From the NCBI RefSeq assembly GCF_024139115.2, contig NC_085140.1, forward strand, positions 105,598,988 to 105,662,987: a DNA stretch of 64,000 bases. The letters are read 5' to 3'. Position 1 is the stretch's first letter. Each line of letters starts with the position of its first letter. Of the stretch, positions 6,501 to 60,476 are shown one piece after another. A model generated the notes under the pieces. The model saw only the letters and a list, made by a program, of their open reading frames with translations. It ran no database searches and was not told the DNA's origin. This DNA comes from Armigeres subalbatus (lineage: Eukaryota; Arthropoda; Insecta; Diptera; Culicidae). The translations under genes were made by a program, and so were the position numbers.

Positions 6501-9500
6501 TGTATGAATAGTCTATTGTAATACGCCCAGTGGCTGAAGACATTTTTAATTGCTCCTTTATTGATTAAGTACACGTGATTCGCTAAATTAGCGTGATTCG
6601 CTAAAGATCAAGCGAAAATGTTTGATACATATAAAATGTTTTAGGTGTAATCTCCACAACCAGGACCCAGCATCGACACAAATTTGAATGAGCTAATGAA
6701 CCGAATGACGACCAACGATCTAGGAAGCGACGATGAAGACGACAACAACGAGTCAGGTGAATTTTCGTGCATGTTAGTGACGTCAATAAACAGAATAAGT
6801 GAGTCATACTTGATTGGAATCTATGACAAAAGGTCGAAAGACAAAAGGTCGAAGGACAAAAGGTCGAATGGACAAAAGGTCTAAGGGACAAAAGGTCGAC
6901 GGGACAAAATGTCGAAAGGACAAAAGGTCGAAATTACAAAAATGGTTAAAATTGAAAAGCCATAGTATTGAGAACAATACAAATGAAAACTATGATGTAA
7001 GTACCGTCTTCTCGGGTGACACTTGGCCAAATAAGGGTCAGGTTGGCCCATGTTTTCGACAAATTCAGCTCAAGGAAAATGTAATATAAGATACCTTATT
7101 GAGCGATTCAGATAGCCGACCTACAGACTGTTCGTGAGAACGATGGCCCAATCTTGACTTAAACCCACAACCTCTAATTTCTACACAAAACTCTACCACC
7201 AATATGCAACATGCATAGGCACATTAATTCATTTATTTAGTTTACATCTAAACAGAAACCACTGAATTAACAATTTGGCGCCACAATACACGAGTTAATA
7301 ATTCGAGAACACTGAGTTCTTTTTAAAAAACTTAAACGTCTAACTATCTTCACTGTTCACAACCAACTGATTTATTATCATCAACTTAACTACATTACAT
7401 GTATGCTGAGTCTGCACTGCCTTGGTAGTTACAGGTTCGATGATCGTTCGCCTGGTTCTGCTGATGCGCCTCGATGTTGCCAACTCCAAAATGCTGACAC
7501 CGATGGGAACGTCGATTGAATTCCAAGTCCAGTCGGCAACGACGTTAGTTCACGGTTCGAGGCCGCATCTCTCCACCCTCGAATGCACCCCACGCTCGCC
7601 AAGTCGTTTTACACCTGGTCTGCCCACCTCGCTCGCTGTGCTCCACGCCGTCTCGTACCTGCCGGATGGGAAGCGAACACCATCTTTGCAGGGTAGTTGT
7701 CCGAAATTCTTGCAACATGCCCTGCCCATCGTACCCTTCCGACTTTAGCTGCCTTCTGGATACTGGGTTCGCCGTAGAGCTGGGCTAGCTCGTGGTTCAT
7801 TCTTCGCCGCCACACACCTAGAGATGTCGTAAAATCTCGATTAATCGATTGGTAACTAATCGATTACTCTCGATTATTGGCGATTATTGAATCGATTCAT
7901 CGTTGAGTATTGAATCGATTCATCGTTGAGTTCAAAATTAATCGATTATCACAACGATTAATCGATTAATCGAAGTAATCGATAATTTGCGACATCTCTA
8001 CACACACCGTCTTTTTATACACCGCCAAAGGTCCTATGCACCTATCTCTCGAATACTCCGAGTGCTTGCATATGCACTGGAACAGTAATGCAGGATCATT
8101 CATGCGTGTACCATGAGAGATATTTTTTCGGTAATGTTGTACAAAATACAACATCACGCATGTTTGAGTGTTAATTAAACTGATTCGTACGGTTAAATCA
8201 CCGAATAATGTGCATAATATAAACTGTTATGTACGGCTTAAGGCCAGTCTTTGTGTACATGCTTCAGTGTTTATTTCTTATTTAAAACCAACCCGATCAG
8301 GAATCTATAACAAAATTATAACTCAATTCTATCAATGGTTGTTATTTAAAACAACGTGTGCTATAATTAGATAATTCGATAAAAATGTGTCTTCGGCCAG
8401 TTTTATTTCATATCAAAATTATAACAACTTTAGTTATGTATGTTTACACAAAATAATTGCCTACATTTTTTGATATTGGAAAAAAAAGCGGAGGTAATCA
8501 CCTCCAGTATAACTTGAATCAATGTTCGATGACAAAGTTAATTGCCTACATTATGGATGGAAATGCGGCGTTGTAGCGTACCACATTTTTATACGTGATG
8601 TAGGCAATTACCATAAAAGTATATTTTCATATCAACGGAAAGTATATAATCATATCAACGGACCTCATTCCGTGCCGATAGTTCGAACGAGCCAGACGTG
8701 TGTGCTGTGTCTCATCGCGGATTGTGTTCGGTAGTGCGAGTCTATTGTGTGGTGCCTACCTACGGATCCAAGGCGATCGCTGTCGGCGAGTGAAGTAGCT
8801 GCTTCTGGCGACGCCAGTGAAGCAGGCTATTGTTACTGCTGCTACCTACAGCAGCAGGGGCAGATAAGTAGAAACGTTTTTATTGTTCTCCCATCTGCTT
8901 GATTCGGAGTGGGGCTGATAGAATAAATAAAATTAGTTTTTTTTTAAGTTTTTTTTCTGATTAGCTATTAGTCTTAAGTTAGTAGTAACATAAGCAAAAT
9001 CATCCTTCCACCTTGCGGGGTGAGAATGGAGACAGAGACTGTGGAAGGCAATGGGCCTCCAAAAGATGCAGGGCGCACACGATTGTACCATGCGGCTTCG
9101 CCTGGGCCTTGGGTTGTTTACTTTCGGCAGAAAGTGAAGAGCCTAGATTTTCTGGGCATAAAACGAGATTTGACGCGTCGTTTTACGAAGCTTGAATTCA
9201 GCCAAATCAACAGGAACAAACTACGCATCACCGCACCTACATACCAGGTGGCGAATGAAATTGCTGGCAACAGGGCGTACAATGTTGAATATTTAGTTTA
9301 TGTGCCCTCGCGGGAGGTCGAGATAGAAGGCGTAATCAACGCAGCGAGCTTGACTTGCAAGGATGTGCTTGCAGGGAAAGGTCGCCTAAAGAACGCCCTG
9401 CAATCTACCGTGGATATTCTGGACTGCAAGGAATTGCATTCAGCAGCCACGGTAGATGGCAAAAAAATTTATTCCAAGTCAGGCTCGCTTCGGGTGACAT

Positions 9501-12500
9501 TCGCCGGTTCGATGCTTCCAAAGTATGTCGATATAGAAAATATGTTGTTTCCGGTGCGTCTTTTTGTGCCAAGGGTATTTAATTGTACCAACTGCAAACA
9601 ACTTGGTCACACTGCCGAGTTTTGTGACAACAAACCACGTTGTGGCAAATGCTCAGAAAGACATCAGGAGGAGTTCTGCCAGCAACAAGCAACAAAATGT
9701 GCTTATTGCGGTTTGAACCCTCCCATGGTTTGCAAGAATGCCCGGTGTACAAAAGCGCACCCAAAAAGTGAAGCGCTCGTTGGTACAGCGCTCCAAGCAG
9801 TCGTATGCGGAAATGGTTAGGTCGCAAGACACATCCGCCTCAGCCACAGCATCGACTGCTATTTCAGCCACCGTTCGTGTAAGTGATTATTATGATTCCA
9901 TATCAATTGACGAATTGGACTCTGACGCAGCCGATATGGATGATTCTGCGGAGGTACACGTGCCCGAAAAGAGGAAGCAACCGTCTTCCCCGGGATCGCG
10001 CCGTAAGAGAACAAAAGTCATCCATAAAAGCTTGCCAAAATCAGAAGGTAATGGGGGTTTATTTAAAATCCCGAAGCAATCTGTCCCTACTGCTTCTTTT
10101 GATCCTAGTTGCAGTAAGACATTCCCGCCATTGCCTAAATCCGATGTTTCGAAGAAACATCCGGCTAGGAGAATCAACGAAAGAAAAAACAAATTCGCAC
10201 TTCTAGAAAAGTATTCCGTCCACGCGATCATTGATCTCCTTTAAGGACCTCGTGGATCGTTTTTTGACCTTGTTCAATATTCCGAATTCATTGAGGCCAA
10301 TCATTGACCTCTTTATTCCAACAGTTGAAAGTTATCTGAAGCAATTGACTGTTTCATGGCCCTTCTTGCAGAAATTGTATCTTTCGATGGATAATACGGC
10401 AAACACCGAAGATACAATCACTGTGCTGCAGTGGAACTGTCACAGTCTGAAAAATAAATTAGACGTGTTCAAGTTTTTGATTCGCAATTCCGATTGCGAT
10501 ATATTTACACTCTGTGAAACATGGCTTTCTTCTGAAGATGAAATCAACTTCCACGATTTTAATATTATTCGCCAAGATCGGGATGATCATTATGGTGGCG
10601 TTCTTTTGGGGATCAAAAATGCTACTCCTTCTACAGAATTCCCATTCCGACTGTTCCCGGCTTAGAAATCGTCGCATGCCAAGTAAATGTGAAGAATAAA
10701 GATCTTTGCATAGCTTCAGTGTACATTCCTCCAAATGCCTCTATTAATCGTCGACATTTTTGGAGCGCAGTCTCCCTCCTATCATCTCCAGTATTGATAT
10801 TGGGTGATATGAACGCACATGGTATTGGATGGGGCGAAACGTATGACGATTATAGAGCGCCTATTTTCTATGATTTGTGTGACGATTTCAATTTGAATAT
10901 TTTGAACACTGGTGAAGTAACTCGAATAGGACCAAATGGTCAACAAAGCCGTATTGATCTGTCTTTATGTTCAAATTCACTATCATTAGATTGCACGTGG
11001 AAGGTAATTCAAGATCCCCATGGTAGTGATCATATGCCGATAGTTACCACAATTAAAAGTAGCTATCAACAATCTGAGCCAGTTAATGTTCCTTTCGACC
11101 TCACGAAAACATTGACTGGCCAAAATTTGCATCGGCGGTAAAATTGGTATTGAATCAACTGATACTCTTCCACCGTTGGATGAATATCGATTCCTTACTG
11201 AGTTGATTAAAAAAAGCGCACTAGAAGCTCAGAACCGACGCGTTCCAAGTACACCTGTCATAAGACGACCAGCCACTCCTGGATGGGGTGATGAATGTAC
11301 TAAGTTGTATTCTGAGAAATCTGATGCCTTCAAGGCCTTCCGTAAACACGGAAGGTCCGAGCTTTTTGAAGAGTATTTGAGGCTCGAAAGAAAACTCAAA
11401 AATCTTCTCAAGGCAAAAAAACGTAGCTACTGGCGACGTTTTGTCGAGGGACTATCACGAGAATCCTCAATGACAACACTTTGGAAAACGGCCCGCAACA
11501 TGCGAAACCGCATTTCCACCAACGAGAGTGAAGAATACTCCAATCGATGGATATTCAACTTCGCAAAAATGGTCTGTCCAGATTCCGTACCAGCAGAACC
11601 GCTATTTCGAGAATCAGTCACTGATCCCGGTTCTTTGGGTGGACCATTCTCAATGCTGGAACTTTCTATGTCTCTTCTTTCATCGAATAACTCTGCTCCG
11701 GGATGCGATAACATCAAATTCAATCTTCTTAAAAACCTCCCAGATATCGCAAAAAGACGATTACTTGACCTGTACAACTGTTTCATGGAGTACAACATTG
11801 TGCCACCTGAATGGCGACAGGTTAAAGTAATAGCTATTCAAAAGCCTGGGAAACCAGCGTCTAATCACAATTCATACCGACCGATTGCCATGCTATCATG
11901 CATGAGAAAATTATTGGAGAAAATGATCCTTTCAAGAGTCGACCATTGGGTCGAAGAAAATGCATTGCTTTCAAATACTCAATTTGGATTTAGGAAAGGA
12001 AAGGAACAAACGATTGTCTAGCGTTGCTTTCTTCAGATATACAACTGGCCTTTGCGCACAAGGAGCAATTGGCTTCAGTATTCTTGGACATTAAGGGCGC
12101 TTTTGATTCAGTTTCCATAGAAGTACTGTCAGGCAATCTGCACAGTAGTGGATTACCCGTTATTTTGAATAATTTCTTGTACAATTTGTTGTCAGAAAAA
12201 CAAATGAACTTCACACTCGGCACTCTGACAACTTCCAGAAATAGCTACATGGGCCTTCCCCAAGGTTCGTGTTTAAGTCCCTTGCTTTATAATTTCTATG
12301 TTAAAGATATTGACAATTGTTTGGAAGGACAATGCACGCTCAGACAACTTGCAGATGATGCCGTGGTCTCTCTAAGAGGTCCATGTGCAGCTGTCTTGCA
12401 AGGACCATTGCAAAGTACCCTAGATAATCTGACTGTTTGGGCCAGACATTTAGGGATCGAGTTTCACCGCAAAAAACTCAGTTGGTTGTGTTTACTAAGA

Positions 12501-15500
12501 AGCGGTATCCTGCTCAACTAAAACTAAAGCTGTTGAATGATGACATCAACCAATCTTTATCTTCTAAATACCTTGGGGTCGTGTTTGATTCCAAATGTAC
12601 CTGGAAACTCCACATTGAGTATTTGATACAAAAATGCCGGAAAAGGATCCATTTTCTACGTTCTATCTCCGGAACATGGTGGGGTGCTCACCCGGAAGAC
12701 CTCATCAAACTCTATAGAACGACTATTCTCTCCGTTTTAGAGTATGGCTCCTTCTGCTTCCTCTCAGCAGCTGATTGCCACCTGATCAAATTGGAACGAA
12801 TTCAGTATCGTTGTTTGCGTATTGCCCTTGGCTGCATGCATTCAACGCATAACATGAGCCTGGAGGTGCTTGCTGGAGTCACTCCTTTAAAAGCACCGTT
12901 ACTGGGAGCTCTCACTTAGAATACTCATCAAATGTGGAACAAGTAACACACTTGTTCTAGATAACTTCGATAATATGCTTGAACTAACTTGTCGTTCAAG
13001 ATTCCTTAGAGTCTATCTCAACTACATTTCTTCAGATCTTTGTCTTCCGTGTTATAATCCACCTCGAGTTCACTTCACCAACGACAGTTCCTCAATTGAA
13101 TACGATCTGTCCATGAAATACGCTATTCAAGGAATACCAGATCATCTTCGACAAATATCTATTCCCTCACTTTTTTCTGAAAAATATGAACATGTCAATT
13201 GCAACAACAGATATTTCACTGATGGTTCTCGCATCAACGGATCCACTGGCTTCGGTGTTTTCAATGTAACTTCAACCACCTTCCAAAAACTTCAGGAACC
13301 GTGTTCGGTTTATGTTGCTGAGCTGGCAGCAATTAACTTCGCTTTGGGGATAATTTCCAATCAGCCCGTAGACCATTATTTCATCTTCTCGGATAGTCTT
13401 AGTTCTATCGAGGCACTCCGGTCGATGAAACCTGTTAAGCACGCATCTTACTTTCTTTCAAACATAAGAGAGCAGATGCGTGTTTTGGTCGAAAGATCAT
13501 TCAAGATTACCTTTGTTTGGGTCCCATCTCACTGCTCAATCTACGGCAATGAGAAGGCAGACTCGCTGGCAAAGGTGGGCGCACAGGAAGGTGAGGTTTA
13601 TGATAGACAATTCTCGAGTAACGAGTTTTTCCCATTAGTCCGTCAGAGTACTCTTCAAAGTTGGCAAAGAAATTGGACACACAACGAACTTGGACGGTGG
13701 CTATTTTCCATAGTTCCAAAAGTTTCTGGGCGAGCGTGGTTCAGAGGTGAGGACTTAAGTCGAGGCTTCATTCGCGTGATGTCGAGACTTATGTCTAATC
13801 ACTATTCACTAAACGCACATCTGTACAGAATAAACCTTGTCGATAGCAACTTATGTAGGTGCGGAGCCGGTTATGATGACATCGATCACGTAGTTTGGTC
13901 CTGCTCGGAAAATGACGCCTCCAGAGAGCAATTATTGGATACCCTTGTGGCCCGAGGTAAACAACCCTTCAGGGAAGTTCGAGGTGTTTTGGGAGATCGT
14001 GATGTTGTCTATATGCAGGCCATTTATAGTTTTCTTTGTGCTTCTGACATCAAAACTTAATATTTTGTTTTTTTCTTCTTTCTTCAAAGTTTTTTTGTTT
14101 AGTCTCTGCCTTTTTGTTCCGTAGAGCTCCATAGCTCTTGCCATCCGGAAGATGCTCCCAGTCGAACCATTCCTCGAGCATGACGACACGCCACATCGTC
14201 ACTGACGCCAAATGCCCGGATGAGAAGCTGACATTTCCTTATCCCAAATCCTAAGCCCCGTCCATCCTTAAACATTGTAAACTAACCTCGAGTCACCACG
14301 AGTACGCTGGCTCCTTCCCCTCTCTGATTAACTGTATAATAAAATGATATTGATTGTATATATCACAAAGAACCATGGCTCCGTAAAGTGTTATACACGC
14401 CTGAGCCTACCAAATAAACGAACTTGGAAAAAAAAATCAACGGACCAGCCAATTTTATAACACATTTTGTTACATTATTTTTCTGAAATAAATAACTTCC
14501 CTTGTTATAATTTTGTTATGCATTCTTGATCGGGAATAACAACGTCACGTTGAATTAAAACCAATAACATCCCCATCTAATACATGATGATAAGTGGAAA
14601 ATGATACACATTATACATTATACACATTTATACAAGAGACAATCTTCTGATTCTCCATGATCGTCATCGGAATGTAATGTATAGGAATGTATAGGAAGTC
14701 GCGTTGGCGAAATAATTAATTATACGACACTGAATCAAAGATACCAAAACCAACATATTTCACTCAAACATGCACTCGAAGCGACACGTGTTACAAGAGC
14801 ACGATCTAACAAGTATTAATTTTTCAGTTCTCGTCCCGAGAACTAATCAAAATCATACAATGCTCACCCTGGCTACTGAATATTCACTGTGAATTGGCTA
14901 AAGAACTGCCCATGAAATAAAGAAGGAGAAATCTCTGGGAAATGTAATAAGCTAAATTTTTTTCAGAAACATGTTTTTAAACTTGTCGTATATTTAGTAT
15001 TTTTCATGTACACAGAATTATAGATTTTTAAATTTTGCCCATTCGACTTTTTGTCCCTTCGACCTTTTGTCCCGTCGACGTTTTGTCCCCTCAACCTTTT
15101 GTCCCTTCGACCTTTTGTCCCATCGACCTTTTGTCCCATCGACATTTTGTCTCTTCGACCTTTTGTCCGTTGACCTTTTGTCCTTCGACCTTTTGTCTTT
15201 CGACATTCTGTCCCAAAGCCCTTGATTGATTTAGCCATTGAAAGGCATTTAGTTACAATGGAAGTAGATTGTGGGTCTGCAGTATTGGTAATAAATAAAG
15301 AACAGTATTTGAATCAGTTTGTTATCAATTAATTGTAGTACATGGTGCTAAACTGAAAATCGAGGGTGAAGTTTTAGTAAGTGCTAATTACCAAGGAAGG
15401 GAAGCTAACCTCAAGCTATTAGTATTGCGTTGCGACAACAATTTTATTCCTCTGGTGGCTTGGTCGCACTCGGATGGATTTTTTTCCCAACTTGGAGGAA

Positions 15501-20844: not shown

Positions 20845-21165
20845 CACGACAACTTAGCACGTGACAACGACACAACTTGAGCACATGAACTGTTTCTGTA
20901 TTCTAAATCTGCTACCGTATACTGTTAATTGCCGAACGTAACGCAACCCGCCTCCAAATCATCGAACCCGAATTGTCGAATTGGATCTATTGTGAACGTT
21001 TTAACTCTTATACTTACGATACACATACAAAGTTAGAATAAAAATCTAGTACTACTTTTCATTCATTCCAGGTCAATTTAAAGAGAAATTCATCTCGTTA
21101 TGATAATTAATTTAAAGCAACGTTATTATGGGATTTTGATTATGTTTGCAAGCAATTTAGATTGG
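20845..21165. promoter_or_regulatory. Upstream region of gene B (presumed promoter), between start codon and satellite
   Basis: Only about 320 bp separate the start codon from the repeat array. No confident TATA box or initiator was found. The inference rests on position. Confidence 0.3.
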
Positions 21166-24100
21166 ATCCAATTTGAATTGAATAAAGATTAGACTCGAAT
21201 TGTATATTGATTAGATATGGAACGGAATTTGGATTTGAATTGGATTTGAAGTGAATTTGAATTGAGTTTGGATTGGATTTGAATTGAGTTTGAATTAGAT
21301 TTGGATTGGATTTGGATTTGATTTGGATTGGATTTGGATTAGATTTGGATTTGAATTGGATTTTGATTGGATTTGGATTGTATTTGGATTGGATTTGGAT
21401 TGGTTTGGTTTGGATTGGATTTGAATTGGATTTGGATTGGATTTGCATTGGATTTGGATTGGATTGATTTGGTTTGAATTGGTTAGATTTGGTTTGAATT
21501 GGTTTTGATTGGTTTTGATTGGATTTGGATTGGTTTGGATTGGTTTGGATTGGTTTGGATTGGTTTGGATTGGTTTGGATTGGTTGGATTGGTTTGGATT
21601 GGTTTGGATTGGTTTGGATTGGTTGGATTGGTTGGTTTGGTTGGATTGGTTGGTTTGGTTTGGTTTGGTTTGGATTGGTTTGGTTGGTTTGGATTGGTTT
21701 GGATTGGTTTGGATTGGTTTGCGTTGGTTTGTATTGGATTTGGATTAGATTTGGTTTGATTGGTTTGATTGGATTGGTTGGATTGGTTTGGATTGGTTTG
21801 GATTGGTTTGGATTGGTTTGGATTGGTTGGATTGGTTTGGTTGGTTTGGTTGGTTTGGATTGGTTTGGATTGGTTTGGTTGGTTTGGATTGGTTTGGATT
21901 GGTTTGGATTGGTTTGGTTTGGATTGGTTTGGTTGGTTTGGTTGGTTTGGATTGGTTTGGATTGGTTTGGATTGGTTTGGTTTGAATTGGTTTTGATTGG
22001 TTTGGATTGTGTTTGGATTGTGTTTGGATTGGTTTGGTTTGGATTGGTTTGGTTGGTTTGGATTGGTTTGGATTGGTTTGGATTGGTTTGGATTGGTTTG
22101 GATTGGTTTGGATTGGTTTGGTTTGGTTTGGTTTGGATTGGTTTGGATTGGTTTGGATTGGTTGGATTGGTTTGGATTGGTTTGGATTGGTTTGGATTGG
22201 TTTGCGTTGGTTTGGATTGGTTTGGATTAGATTTGGTTTGGTTGGTTTGATTGGTTTGGATTGGTTTGGATTGGTTTGGATTGGTTTGGATTGGTTTGGA
22301 TTGGTTTGGATTGGTTTGGTTGGTTTGAATTGGTTTGGTTGGTTTGGTTGGTTTGGATTGGTTTGGTTGGTTTGGATTGGTTTGGATTGGATTGGTTTGG
22401 ATTGGAATTGGATTGGTTTGGATTGGTTTGGTTGGTTTGGATTGGTTTGGATTGGTTTGGATTGGTTTGGATTGGTTTGGATTGGTTTGGTTGGTTTGGA
22501 TTGGTTTGGATTGGTTTGGTTTGGATTGGTTTGGTTGGTTTGGATTGGTTTGGTTTGGATTGGTTTGGTTTGGATTGGATATGGATTGGTTTGGTTGGTT
22601 TGGATTGGTTTGGATTGGTTTGGATTGGTTTGGATTGGTTTGTGTTGGTTTGGTTGGTTTGGATTGGTTTGGATTGGTTTGGATTGGTTTGGTTGGTTTG
22701 GATTGGTTTGGATTGGTTTGGATTGGTTTGGATTGGTTTGGATTGGTTTGGATTGGTTGGATTGGTTTGGATTGGTTTGGATTGGTTTGGATTGGTTTGG
22801 ATTGGTTTGGATTGGTTTGGATTGGTTTGGATTGGTTTGGATTGGTTTGGATTGGTTTAGATTGGTTTGGTTTGATTTGGATTGTTTGGTTTGGATTTGA
22901 ATTGGTTTGGATTGGTTTGGTTGGTTTGGATTGTGTTTGGATTGGTTTGGATTAAATTTGGATTGGTTTGTGTTTGATTTGGTTTGATTGGTTTGGATTG
23001 GTTTGGATTGGTTTGGATTGGTTTGGTTTGGATTGGTTTGGTTGGTTTGGATTGGTTTGGATTGGTTTGATTGGTTTGGATTGGATTAGGATTGGTTTGG
23101 ATTGGTTTGGATTGGTTTGGATTGGTTTGGATTGGTTTGGATTGGTTTGGTTGGTTTGGATTGCGTTTGGATTGGTTTGGTTTGGATTGGTTCAGTTGGT
23201 TTTAATTGGTTTGGTTTTAATTGGTTTGGATTGGTTTGGATTGGGTTGGATTGGGTTGGATTGGTTTGGATTGGTTTGGATTGGTTTGGATTGGTTTGGA
23301 TTGGTTTGGATTGGTTTGGATTGGTTTGGATTGGTTTGGTTGGTTTGGATTGGTTTGGATTGGTTTGGTTTGGATTGGTTTGGATTGGTTTGGATTGGTT
23401 TGGATTGGTTTGGATTGGATTGGATTGGTTTGGATTGGTTTGGATTGGTTTGGATTGGTTTGGATTGGTTTGGATTGGTTTGGATTGGTTTGGATTGGTT
23501 TGGATTGGTTTGGATTGGCTTTGGTTGGTTTGGATTGGTTTGGATTGGTTTGGATTGGTTTGGATTGGTTTGGATTGGTTTGGATTGGTTTGGATTGGTT
23601 TGGATTGGTTTGGATTGGTTTGGATTGGTTTGGTTGGTTTGGATTGGTTTGGATTGGTTTGGATTGGTTTGGATTGGTTTGGATTGGTTTGGATTGGTTT
23701 GGTTGGTTTGGATTGGTTTGGTTGGTTTGGATTGGTTTGGATTGGTTTGGATTGGTTTGGATTGGTTTGGATTGGTTTGGATTGGTTTGGATTGGTTTGG
23801 ATTGGTTTGGATTGGTTTGGATTGGTTTGGATAGGTTTGGGTTGGTTTGGATTGGTTTGGATTGGTTTGGATTGGTTTGGATTGGTTTGGATTGGTTTGG
23901 ATTAGTTTGGATTGGTTTGGATTGGTTTGGATTGGTTTGGATTGGTTTGGATTGGTTTGGATTGGTTTGGATTGGTTTGGATTGGTTTGGTTTGATTGGA
24001 TATGGATTGGATTTTGATTGAATTTGGATGGTATTTGGTTTGGATTGGATTTGGATTCGATTTGGATTGGATTGGATTTGGATTGGATTTGGAGTCCATT

Positions 24101-27100
24101 TGGATTGAATTGGAATTGGGTTAAATTTGGATTGGATTTGGATTGGATTTGGATTGGAGTTGGATTGAATTGGATTTGGATTGGATTGGATTTGGATTGA
24201 ATTTTGATAGGATTTGGATTCAATGTGGATTGGTTTTGGATTTGATGTGGATAAGATTTAGATTTGATGATTTTAATTGGATTTGGATTGAACTTGGATT
24301 GGATTTGGATTGGATTTGGTTTTGTATTGGATATGTATTGCATTTGGATTGGATTTGGATTGGATTTTGATTGGATCTGGATTGGACTTGGATTGGATTT
24401 GGTCTGGATTTGGATTGGATTTGGATTGGATTTGGTTTGGATTTGGTTTGGTTTGTGTTGGTTTGGATTGGTTTGGATTGGTTTGGATTGGTTTGGATTG
24501 GTTTGGTTTGATTTGGATTGGTTTGGATTGGTTTGGATTGGTTTGGATTGGTTTGGATTGGTTTGGATTGGTTTGGATTGGTTTGGATTGGTTTGGATTG
24601 GTTTAGTTGGTTTGGATTGGTTTGGATTGGTTTGGTTGGTTTGGATTGGTTTGGTTGGTTTGGATTGGTTTGGATTGGTTTGGATTGGTTTGGATTGGTT
24701 TGGATTGGTTTGGTTGGTTTGGATTGGTTTGGATTGGTTTAGAATGGTTTGGATTGGTTTAGATTGGTTTGGATTGGTTTGGTTTGGTTGGTTTGGATTG
24801 GTTTGGATTGGTTTGGATTGGTTTGGATTGGTTTGGATTGGTTTGGATTGGTTTGGATTGGTTGGATTGGTTTGGATTGGTTTGGTTGGGTTGGATGGGT
24901 TTGGATTGGTTTGAATTGGTTTGGATTAAATTTGGATTGGTTTGGTTTGGTTTGGTTTGGTTTGGATTGGTTTGGATTGGTTTGGATTGGTTTGGATTGG
25001 TTTGGGTTGGGTTTGGTTATTGTTTGGATTGGATTAGGATTGGTTTGGATTGAATTTGGATTGGTTTGGATTGGTTTGGTTTGATTTGGATTGGTTTGGA
25101 TTGGTTTGGTTGGTTTGGATTGGTTTGGATTGGTTGGATTGGTTTGGATTGGTTTGGATTGGTTTGGATTGGTTGGATTGGTTTGGATTGGTTTGGATTG
25201 GTTTGGATTGGTTTGGATTGGTTTGGATTGGTTTGGATTGGTTTGGATTGGTTTGGATTGGTTTGGATTGGTTTGGATTGGTTTGGATTGGACTTGGTTG
25301 GATTGGTTTGGATTGGATTGGTTTGGATTGGTTTGGATTGGTTTGGATTGGTTTGGATTGGTTTGGATTGGTTGGATTGGTTTGGATTGGTTTGGATTGG
25401 TTTGGTTGGTTTGGATTGGTTTGGATTGGTTTGGATTGGTTTGGATTGGTTTGGATTGGTTTGGTTGGTTTGGTTGGTTTGGATTGGATTTGGATTGGAT
25501 TAGGATTGGATTGGATTTGGAATGGATTTGGATTGGATTTGGATTGCATTTGGATTGGATTTGGATTTTGATTGGATATGGATTGGATTTTGATTGAATT
25601 TGGATTGTGTTTGGTTTGGATTGGATTTGGATTGGATTTGGAGTCCATTTGGATTGAATTGGAATTGGGTTAAATTTGGATTGGATTTGGATTGGATTTG
25701 GATTGGAGTTGGATTGAATTGGATTTGGATTGGATTTGGATTGAATTTCGATAGGATTAGGATTTGGATTCAATGTGGATTGGTTTTGGATTTGATGTGG
25801 ATAAGATTTAGATTTGATTGGATTTGGTTTCGATTTTAATTGGATTTTGATTGAACTTTTATTGAATTTGGATTTGTATTGGATTTGGATTGGATTTTGA
25901 TTGGATCTGGATTGGATTTGGATTGGATTTGGTCTGGATTTGGATTGGATTTGGTTTTGAATTGGATTTGGATTGCATTTGGATTGTATTTGTATTGGAT
26001 TTGTATTGGATTTGGATTGGATTTGGATTGGATTTGGATTTTGATAGGATTTGGATTGGATTTGGATTGGATTTGGATTGGATTTGGATTGGATTTGGAT
26101 TGGATTGGTTTGGATTGGTTTGGATTGGATTTGGATTGGTTTAGATTGGATTAGGATTGGATTGGATTGGTTTGATTGGATCTGGATTGGTTGGATTGGT
26201 TTGGTCTGGTTTGGTTTGGAATGGTTTGGATTGGTTGGATTGGTTTGGATTGGTTTGGATTGGTTTGGATTGGTTTGGATTGGTTTGGATTGGTTTGGAT
26301 TGCGTTTGGTTGTATTTGTGTTGGTTGTGTTGGTTTGTGTTGGTTTGGATTGGTTTGGTTTTTATAGGTTTGGATTGGTTTGGATTGGTTTGGATTGGTT
26401 TGGATTGGTTTGGATTAGATTTGGATTGGGTTTGGATTGGTTTGGATTGGTTTGGATTGGTTTGGATTGGTTTGGATTGGTTTGGATTGGTTTGGATTGG
26501 TTTGGATTGGTTTGGATTGGTTTGGATTGGTTTGGATTGGTTTGGATTGGTTTGGATTGGTTTGGATTGGTTTGGATTGGATTTGGATTGGATTTGGATT
26601 GGATTTGGATTGGATTTGGATTGGATTTGGATTGGATTTGGATTGGATTGGATATGGATTGTATTTGGTTTGGATTGGATTTGGATTCGATTTGGATTGG
26701 ATAGGATTTGGATTGGATTTGGAGTCGATTTGGATTGGATTGGATTTTGGTTGAATTTGGATTGGATTTGGATTGAATTGGATTTGGATTGGATTGGTTT
26801 AGGATTGAATTTCGATAGGATTTGGATTCAATGTGGATTGGTTTTGGATTTGATGTGGATAAGATTTAGATTTGATGATTTTAATTGGATTTGGATTGAA
26901 CTTGGGTTGTATATAGATTGGATTCGGATTGGACTTGGAATGGATTGAAATCGTATGTGAACTGGAACTGGTTTTGGATAGGATTTTGTTTGAATTGCAT
27001 TTCGATTGAATTATAATTTAATTTAGATCTGATTTGCACTACATTTGGATTTAATTTGAATTGAATTTGAGTTTAGTTTGGAATAGATTTGGATTGAATT

Positions 27101-27660: not shown

Positions 27661-27810
27661 GGTTTAGTATTTAGGCGTTAATTAACAATTTTTTTATATT
27701 TCCTATGAGCTGAAAGGAAAAAAAATTGGGATTTGATTTGTCATGCACACTCGATTAGAATGTTATAGATTGATAGAAGGCGTGATGCCTGAGTTTCAAT
27801 GAAACATATT
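27661..27810. other. Spacer between the satellite and gene A
   Basis: Unique-looking AT-rich DNA; it probably includes the end of the gene A transcript. Confidence 0.4.
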
Positions 27811-27816
27811 TTTATT
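27811..27816 (-). promoter_or_regulatory. Probable polyadenylation signal AATAAA of gene A
   Basis: TTTATT on the plus strand gives AATAAA on the minus strand, 55 bp after the stop codon at 27871-27873. Confidence 0.5.
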
Positions 27817-27870
27817 TACATGTTTGTTCCAGTTTCCAAAGTTAATTAACTAAGAACATTTACAATGTAT

Positions 27871-30045: not shown

Positions 30046-33000
30046 CTGAAATGAAGATGAAAAATTAATTATATAGAAGTAGCTTTTTATTGAAAAAATG
30101 TTTTATTGGTCGGGGTTCTGCTAAATTACACAAAGCGCCAATCAGAAAAAAAATCTCATTCAGCGCCCAAGTTTTCATGCAGCAGATCGTATCGGACATC
30201 CCTCATCCCCATAACCGAAAATATCCAACAACAAATGTACTCGTGAATGGTAAGAAATTGAATTTCGTTTTGCTTTTGCGAACAAAGTAAGGTAGAATAC
30301 AGCATTGGCAGGGTGCGACGGTTTTTGGCACCCTTAACAATATTTGCGTTTTACCAGCAAACATACATCATCTATAAACATAATTGAGATCCAATAACAA
30401 AATTTAAATTCTAGGCTTCCATTTGAATTAGTTGTTTGTGTAAATGTAGACATATTTGAGGAATTATTAACCGAAACAAATGCGCACCTGCAAAATCCAT
30501 GCCATTATTGCATTGCTAAAGAGAACAGCGCACGAATAGCAAACTTTTACAGTACACGGGAACAAATGCATGCCCGTAATCATGAAAATCATGAAGTGAC
30601 AAGTTCATGAAATCATGATATAGAATTCATGATTCCAGGAATATTATTCATGGTACTGTGCAATCCCCATCAGCCGACAAAATGCATAACCGGTTATACT
30701 TCTAATCTAACACTCCGTTCCCAAGAAGCAAGAACGGCTGAGAAGTAGCACACCAAATTCTCACTCAGCGGATTCGAGTTCAAGCCCTGTGTTGAACTCT
30801 TTTTTTCTTATCTTAACAACCAAATCGTAACACATTGGATGCGTTACGCGAAAATAAATCATAAAATAACATGAAAACACGATGGATTCACGAAATCATG
30901 AATCGTTTTCTCATTTCGGGGAATGGATTTCTACGCATGTTAACTCTTCCTAACTCGATGTTTTCCCTTACTCGGTGAAATTCAAAGTCCCTTGGATCTA
31001 GCATACTGCGTTACCTCCGTAAGCCGATATGGCCCTTTACACGGCCGTGTAAAAAAAAATCCCATACAAAATTTTTGGAAAGTTGCTCCATTTTGCTTGA
31101 TTCGTCGAGAAATCATAAAACTTTTTTTACGCGGATTTCAAATTTTGAACTGAAAACTTTTATTACACAGAACGCATCCCCCATGTAAAAAAAGAATCGG
31201 GTGTACTATGTAGAATAATTAGCGATTTGTTTTTTCAAAACTTCTAGAAATAAAACCAACATTTAAATACATAATTAGAATCGCTTTATTTCTAACTATT
31301 AAACCCTTATGAACTCAAGCAAATGTGAGGAATTTATAGATTCTAGAAATTATTTTTGCAATTTCCGATCATAGTACCTGGTTTACAGTTCGTCTTTGAG
31401 TGATAAAACGGCCTACTTTTCCATACCAACGAAATAGGTGCTTTAATGACCATTATGCAACTCAAATGAGTTGCATAAAATCCATTATAGCACTCATTTG
31501 GGTGCTATAATGAAAAACCAACATCAGAGCAGTAGTACATGACTTCTTCTTCTTCTTATTGGCATTACATCCCCACACTGGGACAGAGCCGCCTCGCAGC
31601 TTAATGTTCATTATGCACTTCCATAGTTATTAACGGGAGCGGGCCATTTGGCATAAAGTCATTTGGCATAACGCCATTTGGCATAAGGTCATTTGGCTTA
31701 AAGGCCATTTGGCATAACGGTCATTTGGCATAACGGACATTTGGCATAATTGTAACCAACGTCAAAAGTGAGGGTCTTTTGGCATAACGGACATTTGGTA
31801 TAACTTTTCTTTGCGTTCGCTAAATAGTGACTAAGTGATGCGGGAAACACCCCGGAATAGTAAATATAATATCCGTCGATAACAATATTAAAAAGACATT
31901 ATCCTCTCGTGGAAAGAATGCATTTGCAAAGCAATGCAAAAGTAGGCGCATGCCCGGATTAGAGCAGTGGTGGATGTAATCCACTCTTTAAAAGTAGGCG
32001 TGTGGCCGGATTATGGCAATGAAGGATGTGATCCCTTCTTTAAAAGTAGGTGCTTGCCCGGATTATGGCAATGAAAGATATGATCTCTTCTTTAAAAGTA
32101 TGCGCTTGCCCGGATTAAGATCATGGTGGATGCGATCCCTTCTTTAAAGGTAGGCGCTTGCATGGATTATGGTAATGGAGGATGTGATCCCTTCTTTAAA
32201 AATAGGCGCTTGTCCGGATTATTATAATGGTGGATGTGATTCCTTCTTTAAAGTAGGTTCTTGCCCGGATTATGGCAATGGAGGATATGATCTCTTCTTT
32301 AAAAGTAGGTGCTTGCCCGGATTAAGGTCATGGTGAATGCGATCCCTTCTTTAAAGGTAGGCCCTTGCATGGATTATGGCAATGGATAATGTGATCACTT
32401 CTTTAAAAGTAGACGCTTGTCCGGATTATTATAATGGTGGATGTGATTCCTTCTTTAAAGTAGGTGCTTGCCCGGATTATGGCAATGGAGGATATGATCT
32501 CTTCTTTAAAAGTAGGCGCTTGCCCGGATTAAGATCATGGTGGATGCGATCCCTTCTTTAAAGGTAGGCGCTAGCATGGATTATGGCAATGGATGATGTG
32601 ATCCCTTCTTTAAAAGTAGGCGCTTGTCCGGATTAGAGTAATGGTAGATGTGATTCCTTCTTTAAAAGAAGGCGCTTGCCCGGATTGAGACAATGGTGGA
32701 AGTGATCCCTTCTTTAAAAGTAGGCGCATGCCCGGATTAAGGCCATGGTGGATGCGATATCTTCTTTAAAAATAGGCGCTTGCACGGATTATGGCAATGG
32801 AGGATTTGATTTGTTTTTTAAAAGTAGGCGCTTGTCCGGATTGAAGCAATGGTGGATGTAATCCCTTCTTTAAAAGTAGGTGTGTAGCCTGAATTGTGGC
32901 AATGCAATGGTGGATGTGATCCCTTCTTTAAAAGTAGGCCCTGCCCGGATTATGGCAATGGTAGATGTGACTCCTTTTTTATAAGTAGGCGCTTGTCGGG

Positions 33001-36000
33001 AATAAATCAATGGTAGATGTGATCTCTTCCCCGAAAAGCACAATTCAAATTGATTTGGTTGCAATAACTCATATGTGACTTGATTGGTTTTAGTAACTCA
33101 TCTACGACAAGTGTGTTGCTTGAGTTTTTAAAATTAGGCACTTGCCCGGATTAAGGCTATGGTAGATTTGATCCGGTCTTAAGGCGCATGCCCGAATTGA
33201 AGCAATGGTGGATGTAATCCCTTCTTTAAAAGTAGGCATGTGGCCGGAATAAGTCAATGATGGATGTGATCCCTCTCTCGGAAATAATTCTTCCGTTTTG
33301 TTATTTTGTTCTTCCAGAAAATGTCTAACATCAGTTTAAATTTATCAGAAAACAGCCTCGACCTACTTTATCTACGCTAAACATTACATGAAATATCCCT
33401 TTCGCTTTCACAGTTCGAAATTATGCCAAATGTCTGTTATGCCAAATGACCTACTCTTTTCTTGCAGTTCAAAATTATGCCAAATGTCCGTTATGCCAAA
33501 TGAACATTATGCCAAATGGCCTTTATGCCAAATGACCTTATGCCAAATGGCGTTATGCCAAATGACCCAGACCCGTCATTAACTGCGAGGTTTCTAAAGC
33601 CAAGTTACCATTTGTGCATTCGTATATCATGAGGCTAACACGATGATACTTTTATGCCCAGGGAAGTTGAGACAATTTCCAATCCGAAAACTACCTAGAC
33701 CGGCACCGGGAATCGAACTCAGTCACCCTCAGTATGGTCTTGCTTTGTAGCCGCGCGTCTTACCGCACGGCTAAGAAGGTACATGACTACATTTTACTAA
33801 ATTAGCTTAGGTAAGTGTTCAAATAGTTCCAATAGCGTCGCGTAAATTAAATATAATAGTAATAAATTAAATAGTTTGAATTTTCCAAATTAAAGTTCAT
33901 CTATCGCTTCAAGGCTTGTTAAGCTATGCAAGGCAAGCCTCGTTGGATAAACGTACAACTCGTGCTGAAAAAATCATTTTTATGCAACTAGTTGTACAAA
34001 CAACTATTAATGTTTTGGTTCCAAACTCTGAGTCTAGTTTAATAATATATTTTCTCAGAAAATGGGAAACAAAGTAAAAAATAATGTTTATTAAAAATAT
34101 TCTTTTGGAAATTATTTTTGCGGACTATTTTAAAACATTTACATGTAATACGGCAAATTTTCCTAATTAATAACGGATACCAACACCATTGCTAAATGTG
34201 TATCATTTAATTGCCAATGCCTTCTGCGAATGAATGAAAATAATTATTTTTAATCAAATTTCTGCATTCAGTTGATCAGTATTGTAGTTGATTTTTTTTT
34301 TTGATAAGGATTCAGAACTGTTATGGTATAACCTTTTAATGTACTTGTCGTTTAGTACCAACCACAACTTAACATATGGTCAGTCATATGCCAATAACAC
34401 CAATAACTTTCCCTGGGCTATTTTTATTATTCTTCATCCCCAACCACTGCCCTCGCAGCGTCAGCCATCATCGGTGTCTAGCCGTGAGCTCCGAGCGATG
34501 GGCGATTGCATCGATCGTAACCGATACCACTGCATCCGACCATCATCATGCATAGAATGGCAAAAAAATGCGCCCTCTTCTTTCACGCACACTCGCAGAC
34601 CCACCGGGAGTTCTCCCACTGGCGACTGCATGCTGTGTAGGTAAAAAAAATGCGAGAAAAAATGCGCGAGCATAAAGCACGTCAGTACGCGCTGCTGTCA
34701 CAAACAGTAATGACTCGCACACGGAAGGCACAGCTTCTTTTATGCTCAAATAAAATCTTGCGGTGGATCCGGAGGCACGTGGCAGTGCATTCTGTTGTCC
34801 GTGTTAGGAATGCACGAGATTGATTATGAAATTTTTATTGGCCTTGACAAAAATTGAAATTTTCAATAGCTTATCGTTAGCAATCTTATGTTTCAATGAA
34901 GTTGGGAAATTGCTAGAGAGTGTCCGAGTAGATTGATGTATAAATCTTAGAAATCCTTCGAAAGGTAAAGGCGCTAGTAACGTTTGAAATCTTCCCTTTC
35001 AGCGTAACGCTCTCGATTTCCAAAAATCTAAATGACACCCAGTATAGTAAAGAAAGAAGTAAGTCCTACGTCAAAACTGTGAAGTAAGAAGTGAAAAGTG
35101 AAAAAGAGAAACGAAAAGTAAGAAGTAAAAGTAAGAAGTGAGAGGTGAGAAGTGATAAGTGAGAAATTTGAAGTGAAAAATGTGAAGTGGGAAATTCGAA
35201 GTGGAAAGTGTGAAGTGAGAAGTGAGAAATTCGAAATGAAAAATGTGAAGATAGAAGTGAGAAGTAAAAAGTGAGAGGTGAAAAGTAAAAAGTGAAAAGT
35301 AAATTATGAAAAGTGAGAAGAAGTAAGAAGTATGAAGTGGGAAGTAAGAATTGAGAAGTGAAAAGTGAGAGGTGAGAAATTAGAAGTGAAAAATTTAAGA
35401 AGTGAGAAGTAAGAAGCGAAAAGGTAAACGTGAAAAGTAAATAGTGAAAGGTAAGAAGGGAGAAATGCGAAGTGAGAAGTGAAAAGCGAGAAGTGAGGAG
35501 AGAAAAGTGTGAAGTGAATAATGAGAAGTGAGAAGTGAGAAGGGAGAAGTGCGAAGTGAACAGTGAGAAGAGTAAAGTAAGAATGAGAAGTAAAAAAAAT
35601 ATACCGTCTTCGACCAGAGTTCGTACAGACTGAACACTTAACACCTAGCATGAGACAACGGATAGCACATTTACAAACAAGGATGTTATCGATCATTTAG
35701 TAGTTTGTCAATAACTCATTCCAGAAGCGGAATTTCAAAATATGTTGTATGGTGAATTTCTAGTGTGAAGGTTTTTCTACAACTCTGCCAAATGGTTCGT
35801 TGTTTGAATTCACCAAGTAACGGGGTTATAGCTATAGTTTCAGACTAAAACTAAATGATATCAATATTCCAATCATTTAGTTTAAGTTACTGGAACTAGC
35901 GCTATAGCTCCATTGTTAGTTGAATTGTAACAACGAACCATTAGGCAGAGTTGTAGAAAAACCTTCGCACTAGAAGTTCACCATACTACACATTTTGAAA

Positions 36001-39000
36001 TTCCGCTTCTGGAATGAGTTATTAACAAACTACTAAATGATCGAACACAAATTACTAAATGACCATTTGTTTTGAGAACTGCAGCATATTGCATGGAGTA
36101 TGTATGCCAGATAAATGATTTATAAGCTGTAGACGCTGTAGATTTAGTCTATAGCGATATTGCTTAGTCGTCACTTCTAGAATGGATTCATAAAAACCCC
36201 GATAAATACAAAAACTTTCATGTTATTTATGATTTTTCATGTTTCCATTTTTTTCATGCTACCCAGTCCTTGAATTATAGGCAAACAGAATCCTTCTGTT
36301 TATCACCCAGACACATATCTACTCAATTCTGAAGTAGATCAGATGGCAAACTCGTCGGCCACCCGAAACCCCGTACGTCCTCCAAACACAGCAAGCGTTC
36401 AAATCCGGAAATTAATATAATTACCAAAAAGAATCAAATTTCCAATGGGAGGGAAAAGGAAAGAATGAATTAAAATGTAAATAAATATTTTTCGTTTCAT
36501 TTTTTTTGTTCCTTCTCCACTCGTCTAAAAATGTTGACATTTTTGCATAGGCAGGCGTGGAAAAATGGTAGGGGCATGCAGTACATCAGCCAAATAATTC
36601 GCCAAAAGCGGTTTTTGAGCAGCGTTAAAGCATAATTCAGGACTTACTAGCATTTTAACCAACTTTTTTATGCGACTATAAAACCGAACTAAAGCCGGTT
36701 TTAACGGCTAGGTGGTTACTTGGGCCCTCCTTAGCCGTGCGGTAAGACGCGCGGCTACAAAGCTGAGGGTGGGTGGGTTCGATTCCCGGTGCCGGTCTAA
36801 GAAATTTTCGGATTGGAATTGTCTCGACTTCCCTGGGCATAGAAGTATCATCGTGCTAGCCTCATCATGATATACGAATGCAAAAATGGTAACCTGGCTT
36901 AGAAACCTCGCAGTTAATAACTGAGGAAGTGCTTAATGAACACTAAGCTGTGAGGCGGCTCTGTCCCAGTGTGGGGATATAATGCCAATAAGAAGAAGAA
37001 GAAGGTTACTTGGATAGGGTACCTTCACAGCAGAGCATTAGTGATTAATCATAGATTTAATCATGATTAATGAATAATGGGTTATTTAATCATTATTCAT
37101 TAATCATAATCATACAAACAATACGATTTAATCATTAATCACTAATCGTTAATCATAGAATTTTACATTTAATCATTAATCACTGATCATATTCATAATT
37201 GTTTTAAGTTTATTCATTAATCATCAATTTTAATCATTACATACGTCGCTTTTATTCATTAATCTTTAATCATAATCATATAATTTTTATGCCAATTATA
37301 GCCCAATTTGCAAGAAAGGTTACTTGCTTTTTGATCACTATGCAAATCATTCAATTTGATTATTCATAATCATTAATCATTAATCATATCGATCGTTAAT
37401 CATTAATCATACACATATTGTGTCAACATTTAATCACGATCGAACACGAACATTTAATCGTTATTCATACTCCAAACGTTTTTTTCATTAATCATAATCG
37501 TTAATCATTGTCAAAAATTAATTTAATCGTTAATCACAATCATTATTCATTGTCAAAAACGAATAAATCATTATTCATAATCTTTAATCATAAAGTTGAA
37601 TGAAATTAATCATTCATTGGAAGCTTTATTCATTAACGCTCTGCTTCACAGTCTCCATGTTGATCGGTGTCAGGCCATTTGGCCGAATGCCGTTTGGCCG
37701 AACGCCATTTGGCCGAATGCCGTTTGGCCGAACGGGTCGTTTGGCCGAATGCCGTTTGGCCGAATAGTTAAACAAATTTGACCTCAGATTACAAGTAGTG
37801 AATAGTCAGTAATAAGAATTGAGTAATGAGAAGTAGGAAGTGAGAAGTAAAAAAAAAGGAAAGAGAAATGTGAACTGAGAATAGAGAACTTCTTCCTTCT
37901 TCCTTTTTCCTTCTTCCTTCTTTCTTCTTCCATCTTCCTGGTTCCTTCCTCCTTCTATCTTCTTCATTCTTCCTTCCATCTTCTTTCTTGTTCCTTCTTC
38001 CTTCTTCCTTATTGCTTCATCCTTCTTCCTTCTTGCTTCTGCCTTCATCTTTCTTTCTTCCTTCTTCTTCTTCCTTCCTACCACTTCTTTATTCTTTCTT
38101 CCTTCTTTCTTCTTCCTTCTTCCTTTCTACCTCTTCTTACTTCCTTCTACCTTCTTCCTTCTTCCTTCCTTCTTCCTCTTCCTTCTCCCTTCTCCTTTCT
38201 TCCTTCTTTCTTTTTCTTCCTTCTTCCTTCTTCCTTCTTCCTCTTCCTTCTTTCTCCTCTCTTCTCCCTTCTTCCTTCTTCCTTCTTTCCTTTTCTTCAT
38301 TCTTCCTTCTTCTTTCTTCCTTCTTTCTACTTCCTTTTTCCTTCTTCCTTCCTCTTTCTTCCTTCCTCCTTCTACCTTCTTATTTTTTCCATCTTCCTTT
38401 TTCCTTCCTCCTTCTTCTTTCTTTCTTTCTACCTCTCCCTTCTTCTTTCTTCCTTCTTTCTTCTTCCTTTCGCATTCCTCTTTTTTCCTTCTTTCTTTTT
38501 TCTTCTTCCTTCTTCCTTATTCCTCTTCCTTCTTCCTTCTTTCTTCTTCCTTCCGCCTTCTCATTTTTTCCTTCTTCATTCGTTCTTGTTCCTTCTTCCT
38601 TCTTCCTATCTCCTTCTTCCTTCCTCCTTCTTCCATCTTTCTTATTCCTTCTTCCTGCTTCCTTCTTTCTCCTTCCTTCTTCTTTCTTCCTTCTTCCTTC
38701 TTCCTTCTTCTTTTTTCCTTCTTCCTTTTTTCTTCTTCCTTCTTCTTTCTATCTGTCTACCTCTTCCTTCTTTTATCAGTTTTTCGCATTCTTTTTATAT
38801 CCTACTTTCTTTTTTCTTCTTCCTTCTTCCTTTTCCTTCTTCCTTTTTTTCTTCTTCCTTCCGCCTTTTTATTTTTTCCTTCTTCCTTCTTCCATCTTCC
38901 TCCATTCTTATTCTTTCTTCCTTCTTCCTTCTTCCTTCTTCCTTCTTCCTTCTTCCTTCTTCCTTCTTCCTTCTACCTTCTTCCTTCACACACTTATTAA

Positions 39001-41416
39001 GAAAACGTATTTCAACTATTCGACCAAACGGCATTCGGCCAAATGGCGTTCGGCCAAATGACCCTTTCGGCCAAATGGCATTCGGCCAAACGACATTCGG
39101 CCAAATGACCCTAAACCTGTTGATCTGAGGTGTGAAAAGTGAGTTGAAGCTCGCCTACGTCTATGAGGGCGGACACAGTATCAAATTAAATACAATATGG
39201 CTAATCTGAGGCGTTCATAGCAGATTGAGCACTCGTCTGAAGGAACGGGGGTGGTCTCAGCATATTATTCGCTTCTTTTCTATTGTTCTCTTCAAGGGAA
39301 ATAACTAGAACAGTATTTTTGTGAAAATGTAGTATCTTGAAAAGCTTGTTAGTCATCGACTAACTACGACCCCCCACTACTACAGGACTGCTCGGGAAAC
39401 GACCATCAGTGGCTAAACCATATTTCTAGAGGAAAGGCTCCAAAACGCCTCCCCCCAGGTAAATCGCCTTTTGGGTATTCCCTCATATTTACCGTATTTG
39501 GCATGGACGTAATAAAATTACGACCAAAAATTATGTAGGTGTGTGCTTTTTTTTTTTTTTTTTTTTACAAGGGAGAATGCATTTACACACTAACCCAGTA
39601 CACGTGCATTGAAGTTGCCAAACTACCACACGGAAGTGTACTGGAGTGTCGGACTCGACCATACCGGTAATACCGACTAAACTCCCTTGGGCTCCACCAT
39701 CGTTTCCCCCAGGAACTACCTCGCAGTACTACTTCTGGGGGGACGGCAGTACTAAGCGTACTCGCTCATTATCGCTCACACAGGCACTCGTCCCACGCGA
39801 GACTGACTTGGGTGCTCGCACACCATTCACTCCATTTGAGTCTTACTTGGATGCTCTTCCGGGCGCTCCGCTGCCATGCCTCGAGGTGTCAATAGCGGTA
39901 ACTGCCTGTGCCCACAGTTATTACGCTACGACACTTATGACACAGCATGTGCAGATCAATCACACCACTGCCGAAGCAGACCACTCGCTTCCCTGCCGAA
40001 GCAGGGACACTCCCCATGCACCACATGTGCACAACTGTAAGTGTGTGGGTACAACCCACTGCTACCCTGCCGCCGAAGCAGCTTCTCCAAAGACCATTCG
40101 CTCCATGTGACCCTTATTCGGGTGCTCACTGTAACACTCCACTGCCATGCCTCGAGGTGTCGATAGCGGTATGTAGGGACGAATCAACGATACTACGCTA
40201 CGACACTCCTACCTCAGCATGTGCAGTCCATACTCAGACTTCTGCTGCGCTTCGAGGTGACAATAGCGGCGGCGACACGCTATGACACTCCTGCCTCAGC
40301 ACAACCAGATCACTCACTCCCTGCCGAAGCAGCTCACGCGCTACCCTACCGAAGTAGGTACACTCCACAACTCACTCTAACACTCCACTGCCATGCCTCG
40401 AGGTGTCGAGAAGGTACCTCGACTCCTACCTCAGCATGTGCAGTCCATACTCAGACTTCTGCTGCGCTTCGAGGTGTCGATAGCGGTAACTGCCTGGGCC
40501 TACAGATATTACGCTACGACACTCCTGCCTCAGCACGAGCAGATCAATCACACCACTGCCGAAGCAGACCACACGCTACCCTGCCGAAGCAGGGACACTC
40601 CCCATGCACCACATGTGCACAACTGTATGTGTGTGGGTACAACCCACTGCTACCCTGCCGCCGAAGCAGCTTCTCCAAAGACCATTCGCTCCATGTGACC
40701 CTTATTCGGGTGCTCACTGTAACACTCCACTGCCATGCCTCGAGGTGTCGATAGCGGTATGTAGGGACGAATCAACGATACTACGCTACGACACTCCTAC
40801 CTCAGCATGTGCAGTCCATACTCAGACTTCTGCTGCGCTTCGAGGTGACAATAGCGGCGGCGACACGCTATGACACTCCTGCCTCAGCACAACCAGATCA
40901 CTCACTCCCTGCCGAAGCAGCTCACGCGCTACCCTACCGAAGTAGGTACACTCCACAACTCACTCTAACACTCCACTGCCATGCCTCGAGGTGTCGATAG
41001 CGGTATGTAGGGACCAATCAACGATACTACGCTACGACACTCTTACCTTAGCATGTGCAGTCCATACTCAGACTTCTGCTGCGCTTCGAGGTGACAATAG
41101 CGGCGGCGACACGCTATGACACTCCTGCCTCAGCACAACCAGATCACTCACTCCCTGCCGAAGCAGCTCACGCACTACCCTACCGAAGTAGGGACACTCC
41201 ACATGCCAATTGGCACTCCTGGGCTTGTGCTTTGAAGCGGCACACAGTCGCTTTGATAGAGTCCGCTTACGGGCACTTGTGTTTTTGGGAGGGATTTTAG
41301 CAGAGCCCACTGCTAAATCCCACCACGCCCTAGGCAGTTCTCCCTGACTCGCAGACAGCTGGGGAGGGGTCGTCAAGCCCTTGGACATCATGCTGTCCCT
41401 GCTGTCCCTGCTGCCC

Positions 41417-55777: not shown

Positions 55778-55778
55778 G

Positions 55779-59253: not shown

Positions 59254-59288
<35 letters not shown>

Positions 59289-60418: not shown

Positions 60419-60476
<58 letters not shown>

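Follow-up and report, generated by a model that had tools for sequence, protein, structure and literature searches.

Liu and Wessler (2017; PMC5225508) describe 14 families of Mutator-like elements (MULEs), Muta1-14, in Aedes aegypti, with target duplications of 8–9 bp. Ten of the 12 families with long terminal inverted repeats (TIRs) carry subterminal tandem repeats of 9–15 bp. Muta1, which is called a type 2 foldback element there, has a 10-bp end motif and nine 12-bp repeats with 3–4-bp spacers, and its transposase can mobilise, in yeast, derivatives that differ in their interiors, generating 8/9-bp duplications. Tm1, a Mutator/Foldback family of root-knot nematodes, makes mostly 9-bp duplications and has a FLYWCH+MULE transposase (PMC3169594); Rehavkus, a MULE-like group in Repbase, has a minisatellite before the 3' TIR and a transposase said to contain a PHD finger (PMC6446971); and in arthropod MULEs G/C is conserved within the three outermost TIR bases (PMC13359780). 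Here we describe three elements, G1, G2 and G3, in a 64,000-nucleotide stretch of the Armigeres subalbatus genome (C2:105598988-105662987), referred to as the window. Very probably they are non-coding members of three MULE foldback lineages, each with its own transposase and its own 12-bp repeat, which move by the mechanism proposed below.

Elements G1, G2 and G3

G1, G2 and G3 are genuine DNA transposons, complete and non-coding, with a foldback structure, in that inverted arrays of short direct repeats occupy the element ends. The arrays consist of 12-bp cores separated by spacers of 3–5 nt, and each G1 array has one 26-nt gap besides. A leader of 10 nt precedes the first core at all six ends. 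An original prediction, made from the window sequence, had reported these inverted arrays, leaders and target duplications, and all are present. The tandem units it described as 15–16 bp long are really the core plus its spacer, with a pitch of 15–17 nt after the first three cores.

G1 (31635..33574) has the leaders GGGAGCGGGC and GGGTCTGGGT and the core CATTTGGCATAA. The left array (31645..31803, plus strand) contains nine cores, seven before the gap and two after it, and the right array (33421..33564, minus strand) contains eight. About 21 copies of a 52-bp minisatellite unit lie inside (31938..33029, plus strand). The element sits in a short interspersed nuclear element (SINE) and is flanked by GTTATTAAC on the left (31626..31634) and by GTCATTAAC, with one mismatch, on the right (33575..33583). 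About 3 kb from G1, a stretch with an uninterrupted copy of the same SINE (36691..37020, minus strand) represents a paralogous empty site and carries a single GTTATTAAC at G1's insertion spot. The G1 duplication is 9 bp, and the element ends at 33574; the prediction of 8 bp for all three elements holds for G2 and G3 but not for G1.

G2 (37666..39117) has the leaders GGTGTCAGGC and GGTTTAGGGT, the core C(A/G)TTTGGCCGAA, a pyrimidine tract inside, and six cores in both the left (37676..37764, plus strand) and the right array (39019..39107, minus strand). The 8-bp duplication TGTTGATC lies at 37658..37665 and 39118..39125. G3 (6817..15220) has the leaders GAATCTATGA and GGCTTTGGGA and the core CAAAAGGTCGAA, with the 8-bp duplication CTTGATTG at 6809..6816 and 15221..15228. 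Its left array (6827..6932, plus strand) has seven cores, starting at element nt 11, 26, 41, 57, 73, 89 and 105, and its right array (15026..15210, minus strand) has 12 when scored from the right end and 11 in a separate count. A non-LTR (long terminal repeat) retrotransposon with reverse transcriptase and RNase H is nested in G3, with ATCAACGGACC repeats on both sides (8665..14436, plus strand; limits approximate, set by eye). The duplications of all three elements fall in the MULE range of 8–11 bp. The TIRs of G1 and G3 exceed 100 bp; that of G2, at about 99 bp when counted by cores, is borderline relative to the >100 bp typical of MULEs.

Copies of the elements in the genome

The genome that contains the window (1.336 Gb) was searched with G1 and G2. 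The G1 search yielded 4739 candidates; 40 were scored, and 40 G1-like places were fetched, the window's G1 included. Both ends are present in 38 of the 40. The duplication is a perfect 9 bp in 28, 9 bp with one mismatch in three and a perfect 8 bp in three; the remaining two-ended places show 8 bp with one mismatch (one), 7 bp (one) or no clear duplication (two). Both ends together with a duplication of 9 bp (at most one mismatch) or a perfect 8 bp are thus found in 34 of the 40 places, and an 8–9-bp duplication at no more than one mismatch in 35. The original prediction had considered that most arrays might turn out to be single or to lack duplications; most of the G1-like places fetched instead have both ends and a duplication of 8–9 bp. 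The G2 search gave 2261 candidates, and the 40 scored are 84–100% identical (window copy included). Clean 8-bp duplications flank three of the six relatives fetched; in the others the duplication has two mismatches (L080), none is clear (L081), or the right end was not recognised (L082).

Simple tandem repeats abound in the window, and such arrays could be chance tandem arrays or satellites that have nothing to do with mobile elements. This explanation, to which we assign practically no probability, is refuted by the duplications in those 34 G1-like places, by the empty SINE site, and by the coding copies described below.

MULE transposase genes between the same ends

A search of the genome with the MULE transposase profile PF10551 (150 of 167 candidates scored) identified at least 108 places, all over the cut-off. 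We read the best 30 of the 108, plus longer stretches around several of them. Arrays of the same design adjoin 26 of these 30, in nine unit dialects, while no array was seen within the approximately 1.5 kb read per side at L046, L047, L060 and L071. The motif GGNCAWWWGGYMKAA, to which the repeat units had originally been fitted, proved too narrow, as the same design is also written as CATTCGCCCGAA, CATTACCCCGAA, CATTTCGCGGTG, CATTTAGTCGAA and CGAAAGGC(A/T)GAA.

At 11 of these loci two such ends enclose the gene, and the whole is flanked by an 8- or 9-bp duplication (L054, L055, L056, L058, L059, L064, L072+L079, L073+L077, L074, L075 and L076). A long, transposase-coding copy between such arrays, as had been envisaged, therefore exists, and the enzyme is a MULE transposase. 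The coding relative of G1, L072+L079 (3479 bp), has both of G1's leaders, a TIR 92% identical over 170 bp, and the duplication CCATGGTC, which is 8 bp, or 9 bp with one end base moved. That of G3, L073+L077 (3393 bp), has G3's left leader and core, the duplication GTTGTACGC and an open MULE frame of 380 amino acids. The G2-like L075 (4342 bp) has the leader GGTGTCAAGC, compared with GGTGTCAGGC in G2, the core CATTAGGCCGAA and the duplication GACTATGAT. The G1-like L074 (3618 bp; duplication CTGGACGAA) holds the open 433-amino-acid MULE frame of L042, and L076 (5699 bp) is flanked by CTTGGAAAC/CTTGGAAGC, with one mismatch. In the CATTCGCCCGAA dialect the duplications are a perfect 9 bp at L054, L055, L056, L058 and L059, and 8 bp at L064. 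Among named proteins, the one closest to the L042 transposase comes from Aedes aegypti, with 84% identity over 65% of the query. These coding copies uphold the earlier view of mobile, foldback-type elements that share one scaffold and have their own unit in each lineage.

Elements of the hAT superfamily also make 8-bp duplications, and foldback ends can belong to P-type elements. Galileo is described as a foldback-like member of the P superfamily with long, internally repetitive TIRs (PMC3573991, PMC4168063). However, the genes between the ends described here are MULE genes (PF10551), no P-type transposase is found there, and the G1 duplications are mostly 9 bp. A P-type or hAT identity for G1, G2 and G3 is extremely unlikely.

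Ends of different dialects also occur close together. A G2-type end (~997-1056) lies beside the L066 MULE, which is of the CATTTCGCGGTG dialect, and a G1-type array (~3-72) lies beside the L062 MULE, which has ends of another dialect; elements of different dialects thus cluster or nest. Because of these foreign-dialect ends, an adjoining array alone is no proof of ownership. Nesting within one dialect is seen at L048+L078, a MULE locus where an outer pair of G3-type arrays, itself without a duplication that could be found, encloses a G3-type element with an GAATTACAT duplication (joined stretch, positions 3160-5139).

Dialect and transposase lineage

The unit dialect follows the transposase lineage. 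A unit label could be given to 25 loci on a FastTree tree of 30 MULE stretches, with 10 labels in all, or nine when CGAAAGGCAGAA and CGAAAGGCTGAA count as one. There are nine label changes on the tree, the smallest number possible; in 2000 shuffles the mean was 15.9 changes and the lowest 12, a contrast that is inflated by copies of the same family. L065 was unlabelled in this test, and its leader and core are those of its tree neighbours, L042 and L043.

The original prediction held that one enzyme, reading a spaced scaffold of leader plus CAWWWGG, mobilises all three dialects. The leader and the start of the core are indeed common to them, the ruler described below is common to nearly all units, and in a terminus-anchored comparison the ends resemble each other more than shuffled sequences do (G1–G2, 17/22, P 1e-5; G2–G3, 14/22, P 7e-4; G1–G3, 12/22, P 0.013). 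However, each dialect surrounds its own MULE lineage with the fewest possible label changes, and separate coding copies exist with G1 ends and with G3 ends. As the dialect tracks the transposase lineage, a single scaffold-reading enzyme is unsupported, and we consider it improbable.

We also looked for a graded recognition code, in which similar transposases would have similar cores. Core and transposase distances are uncorrelated among nine representatives (Spearman 0.008, P 0.47), and because of this a graded code is rejected, a result that does not favour our interpretation. Every lineage has its own unit, without a graded code.

Spacing of the cores

At all six window ends, counting from the terminus, cores one to three begin at nt 11, 26 and 41. 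We scored 42 ends in total, these six included, with leaders chosen by eye, pitches of 15, 16 and 17 only, and up to four mismatches; the 10-nt leader length was checked against the duplications where both ends were available, and the right end of L053 was not found. In 40 of the 42, all but the two ends of L075, the second core begins at 26, and nine of the ten unit sequences keep this position. Forty ends have a third core, which begins at 41 in 37 of them and at 42 in L073 and at both ends of L076. Three further ends were added, from L065 (26, 42), from the G2-type end beside L066 (27, 43) and from the G1-type end at the edge of L062 (27, 43); pooled, the second core is at 26 in 41 of 45 ends and the third at 41 in 37 of 43. 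Among 75 G1-type ends from the G1-like places the next cores start at 26 in all 75 and at 41 in 70; these ends were found by a leader plus a core at nt 11, so the first position is built in.

The ruler may reflect common descent from one ancestral end rather than selective constraint, and we give this somewhat less than an even chance. All of the MULEs come from one genome, core distance does not follow enzyme distance, a few ends carry the second core at 27, and the TIRs of Muta3 and Muta11 are reported to be 76% identical (PMC5225508). However, the leader and core letters have diverged (down to 8/22 matches between window ends) while the first spacings are mostly kept. In addition, spacers one and two measure 3 nt in 12/12 window cases, compared with 6/27 later ones, a count from which the two 26-nt gaps are excluded and in which the ends are not independent.

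We tentatively propose, with somewhat less than even confidence, that these MULE transposases share a selected length ruler, comprising the cut and cores at +11, +26 and +41 with a pitch of about 1.5 helical turns, along which the letters drift. Each lineage would then have a private, self-amplified binding array, and the genome would contain about ten matched pairs of transposase and site, which are potentially mutually insulated mobilisation systems. The kind of element is already known; the regularity that appears new is the ruler itself, a 10-nt leader and cores at 11, 26 and 41 across dialects. We found no cross-family spacing rule described in the available portions of PMC5225508, PMC3169594, PMC6446971 and PMC13359780, or in the titles and abstract openings of related literature.

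Proposed mechanism

In the cut-and-paste mechanism we favour, the transposase of each lineage would be made from coding copies elsewhere in the genome and would bind the cores of elements such as G1, G2 and G3 in trans, presumably through a zinc finger. Each lineage's transposase probably carries an N-terminal FLYWCH finger. The enzyme would pair both ends of an element, cut at the tip of the leader, and insert the element into a target with an 8- or 9-bp stagger, so that the duplication would arise on repair. Cores one to three, held nearly fixed at nt 11, 26 and 41 from the cut, may form an end-proximal cleavage platform, and their spacing may be under selection. The inner cores drift in spacing and number and may constitute an accessory binding array, one that would grow and shrink through tandem-repeat turnover.

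Several observations weigh against this interpretation. Only 30 of the 108 MULE places are covered. No duplication is present at the ends scored for L063 (CATTCGCCCGAA dialect) and L049 (CATTACCCCGAA). L075 does not belong to G2's own subfamily (core 11/12, leader 9/10), and it has short arrays, a second core at 27 and a stop in its frame; the G1-type coding copy likewise has a stop within the MULE stretch. An N-terminal FLYWCH together with the MULE domain characterises Phantom-type MULEs. Here FLYWCH scored over the Pfam cut-off in one of six frames (L070) and below it in L042; it was unseen in the other four, which may lack a first exon, and for L049 and L056 the scan went no further than E 0.001. 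Of the outside matches to L042, the best shows MULE alone and the second best both FLYWCH and MULE. For the ruler, the second core is at 27 beside L066 and at the edge of L062, and ends within one family are not independent, which bears on all of the counts.

Interiors and neighbouring sequence

The interiors had been described as unrelated, which is not borne out. The 52-bp minisatellite of G1 is approximately 80% identical to one with a 53-bp unit in 3.6 copies that its coding relative, L072+L079, carries some 0.3 kb inwards from the right TIR, 5' to the minus-strand gene. Judged from this similarity, the G1 minisatellite is most simply read as an expansion of the element's own sequence. L075, the coding relative of G2, contains long purine tracts. 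The window itself has a purine (GAAGTGA) tract at 35081-35591 and a pyrimidine (CTTCTTC) tract at 37889-38987, and similar tracts occur within the MULE elements L075 and L076.

Elsewhere in the window, a diverged array of a 5-bp unit (TTGGA) extends over 5.7 kb (21268-26947), with a strong strand skew and open in several frames, and a tandem repeat with a 167-bp unit is present in about 17.5 copies (58666-61559). A further inverted-repeat element at 55776-56898 has arms of 188 nt that are 94% complementary and 747 nt apart. An open frame on the minus strand (2497-3255) contains an acyltransferase-3 domain (PF01757, E 4.3e-21) and is likely an exon of a host gene. Scans of viral contigs for the three arrays gave one, zero and zero matches; the single match, L001, is a two-copy repeat in coding-like sequence and not an array.

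The results put a name to the enzyme behind a group of foldback elements that could not previously be placed, and they turn a resemblance between motifs into a testable rule in which spacing is fixed and letters are free. Matched pairs of transposase and array from one genome offer a way to ask how a DDE transposase measures the distance to its cut, and they bear on why foldback arrays diverge by lineage. The G1 minisatellite suggests that a seemingly unrelated core can arise from an element's own subterminal sequence.

Comparison with known systems

Among the papers listed for the unit sequences (20 of 111), no title concerned transposons. The original prediction named Drosophila FB and Galileo elements as the nearest analogues. 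Both resemble G1, G2 and G3 in having foldback arrays of short repeats; however, Galileo belongs to the P superfamily, and the enzyme here is of the MULE type. Sea-urchin TU elements also have foldback arrays, with 15-bp repeats and 8-bp duplications.

Rehavkus (PMC6446971) shares with G1 and its coding relative a MULE-like structure and a minisatellite near one TIR. Membership in this group was rejected, as the minisatellite of L072+L079 is on the 5' side of the minus-strand gene and not before the 3' TIR. No PHD match was detected in the six frames scanned with Pfam, a set that does not include the G1-type coding frame.

Tm1 is closer. Its end, as given in PMC3169594, consists of 7 asymmetric nucleotides plus a 3-nt motif, and the resulting 10 nt, equal in length to the leader here, are followed by a tandem array. 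The Tm1 unit differs in length (13–15 bp, mostly 14), in sequence and in host. It starts with CGATT/CGTTT, as do several of the cores here. To judge by these likenesses, Tm1 and the present elements possibly share one ancient layout.

The nearest known kind, compared by description, is the set of Muta1-14 elements of Aedes aegypti, not Drosophila FB or Galileo. As described in PMC5225508, these elements resemble G1, G2 and G3 in their 8–9-bp duplications, subterminal repeats and varied interiors, and Muta1 in particular has the same 10 + 12 + 3–4 layout. The Muta1 end motif is an imperfect palindrome, whereas the leaders here, such as GGGTCTGGGT, GGTTTAGGGT and GGCTTTGGGA, are not palindromic.

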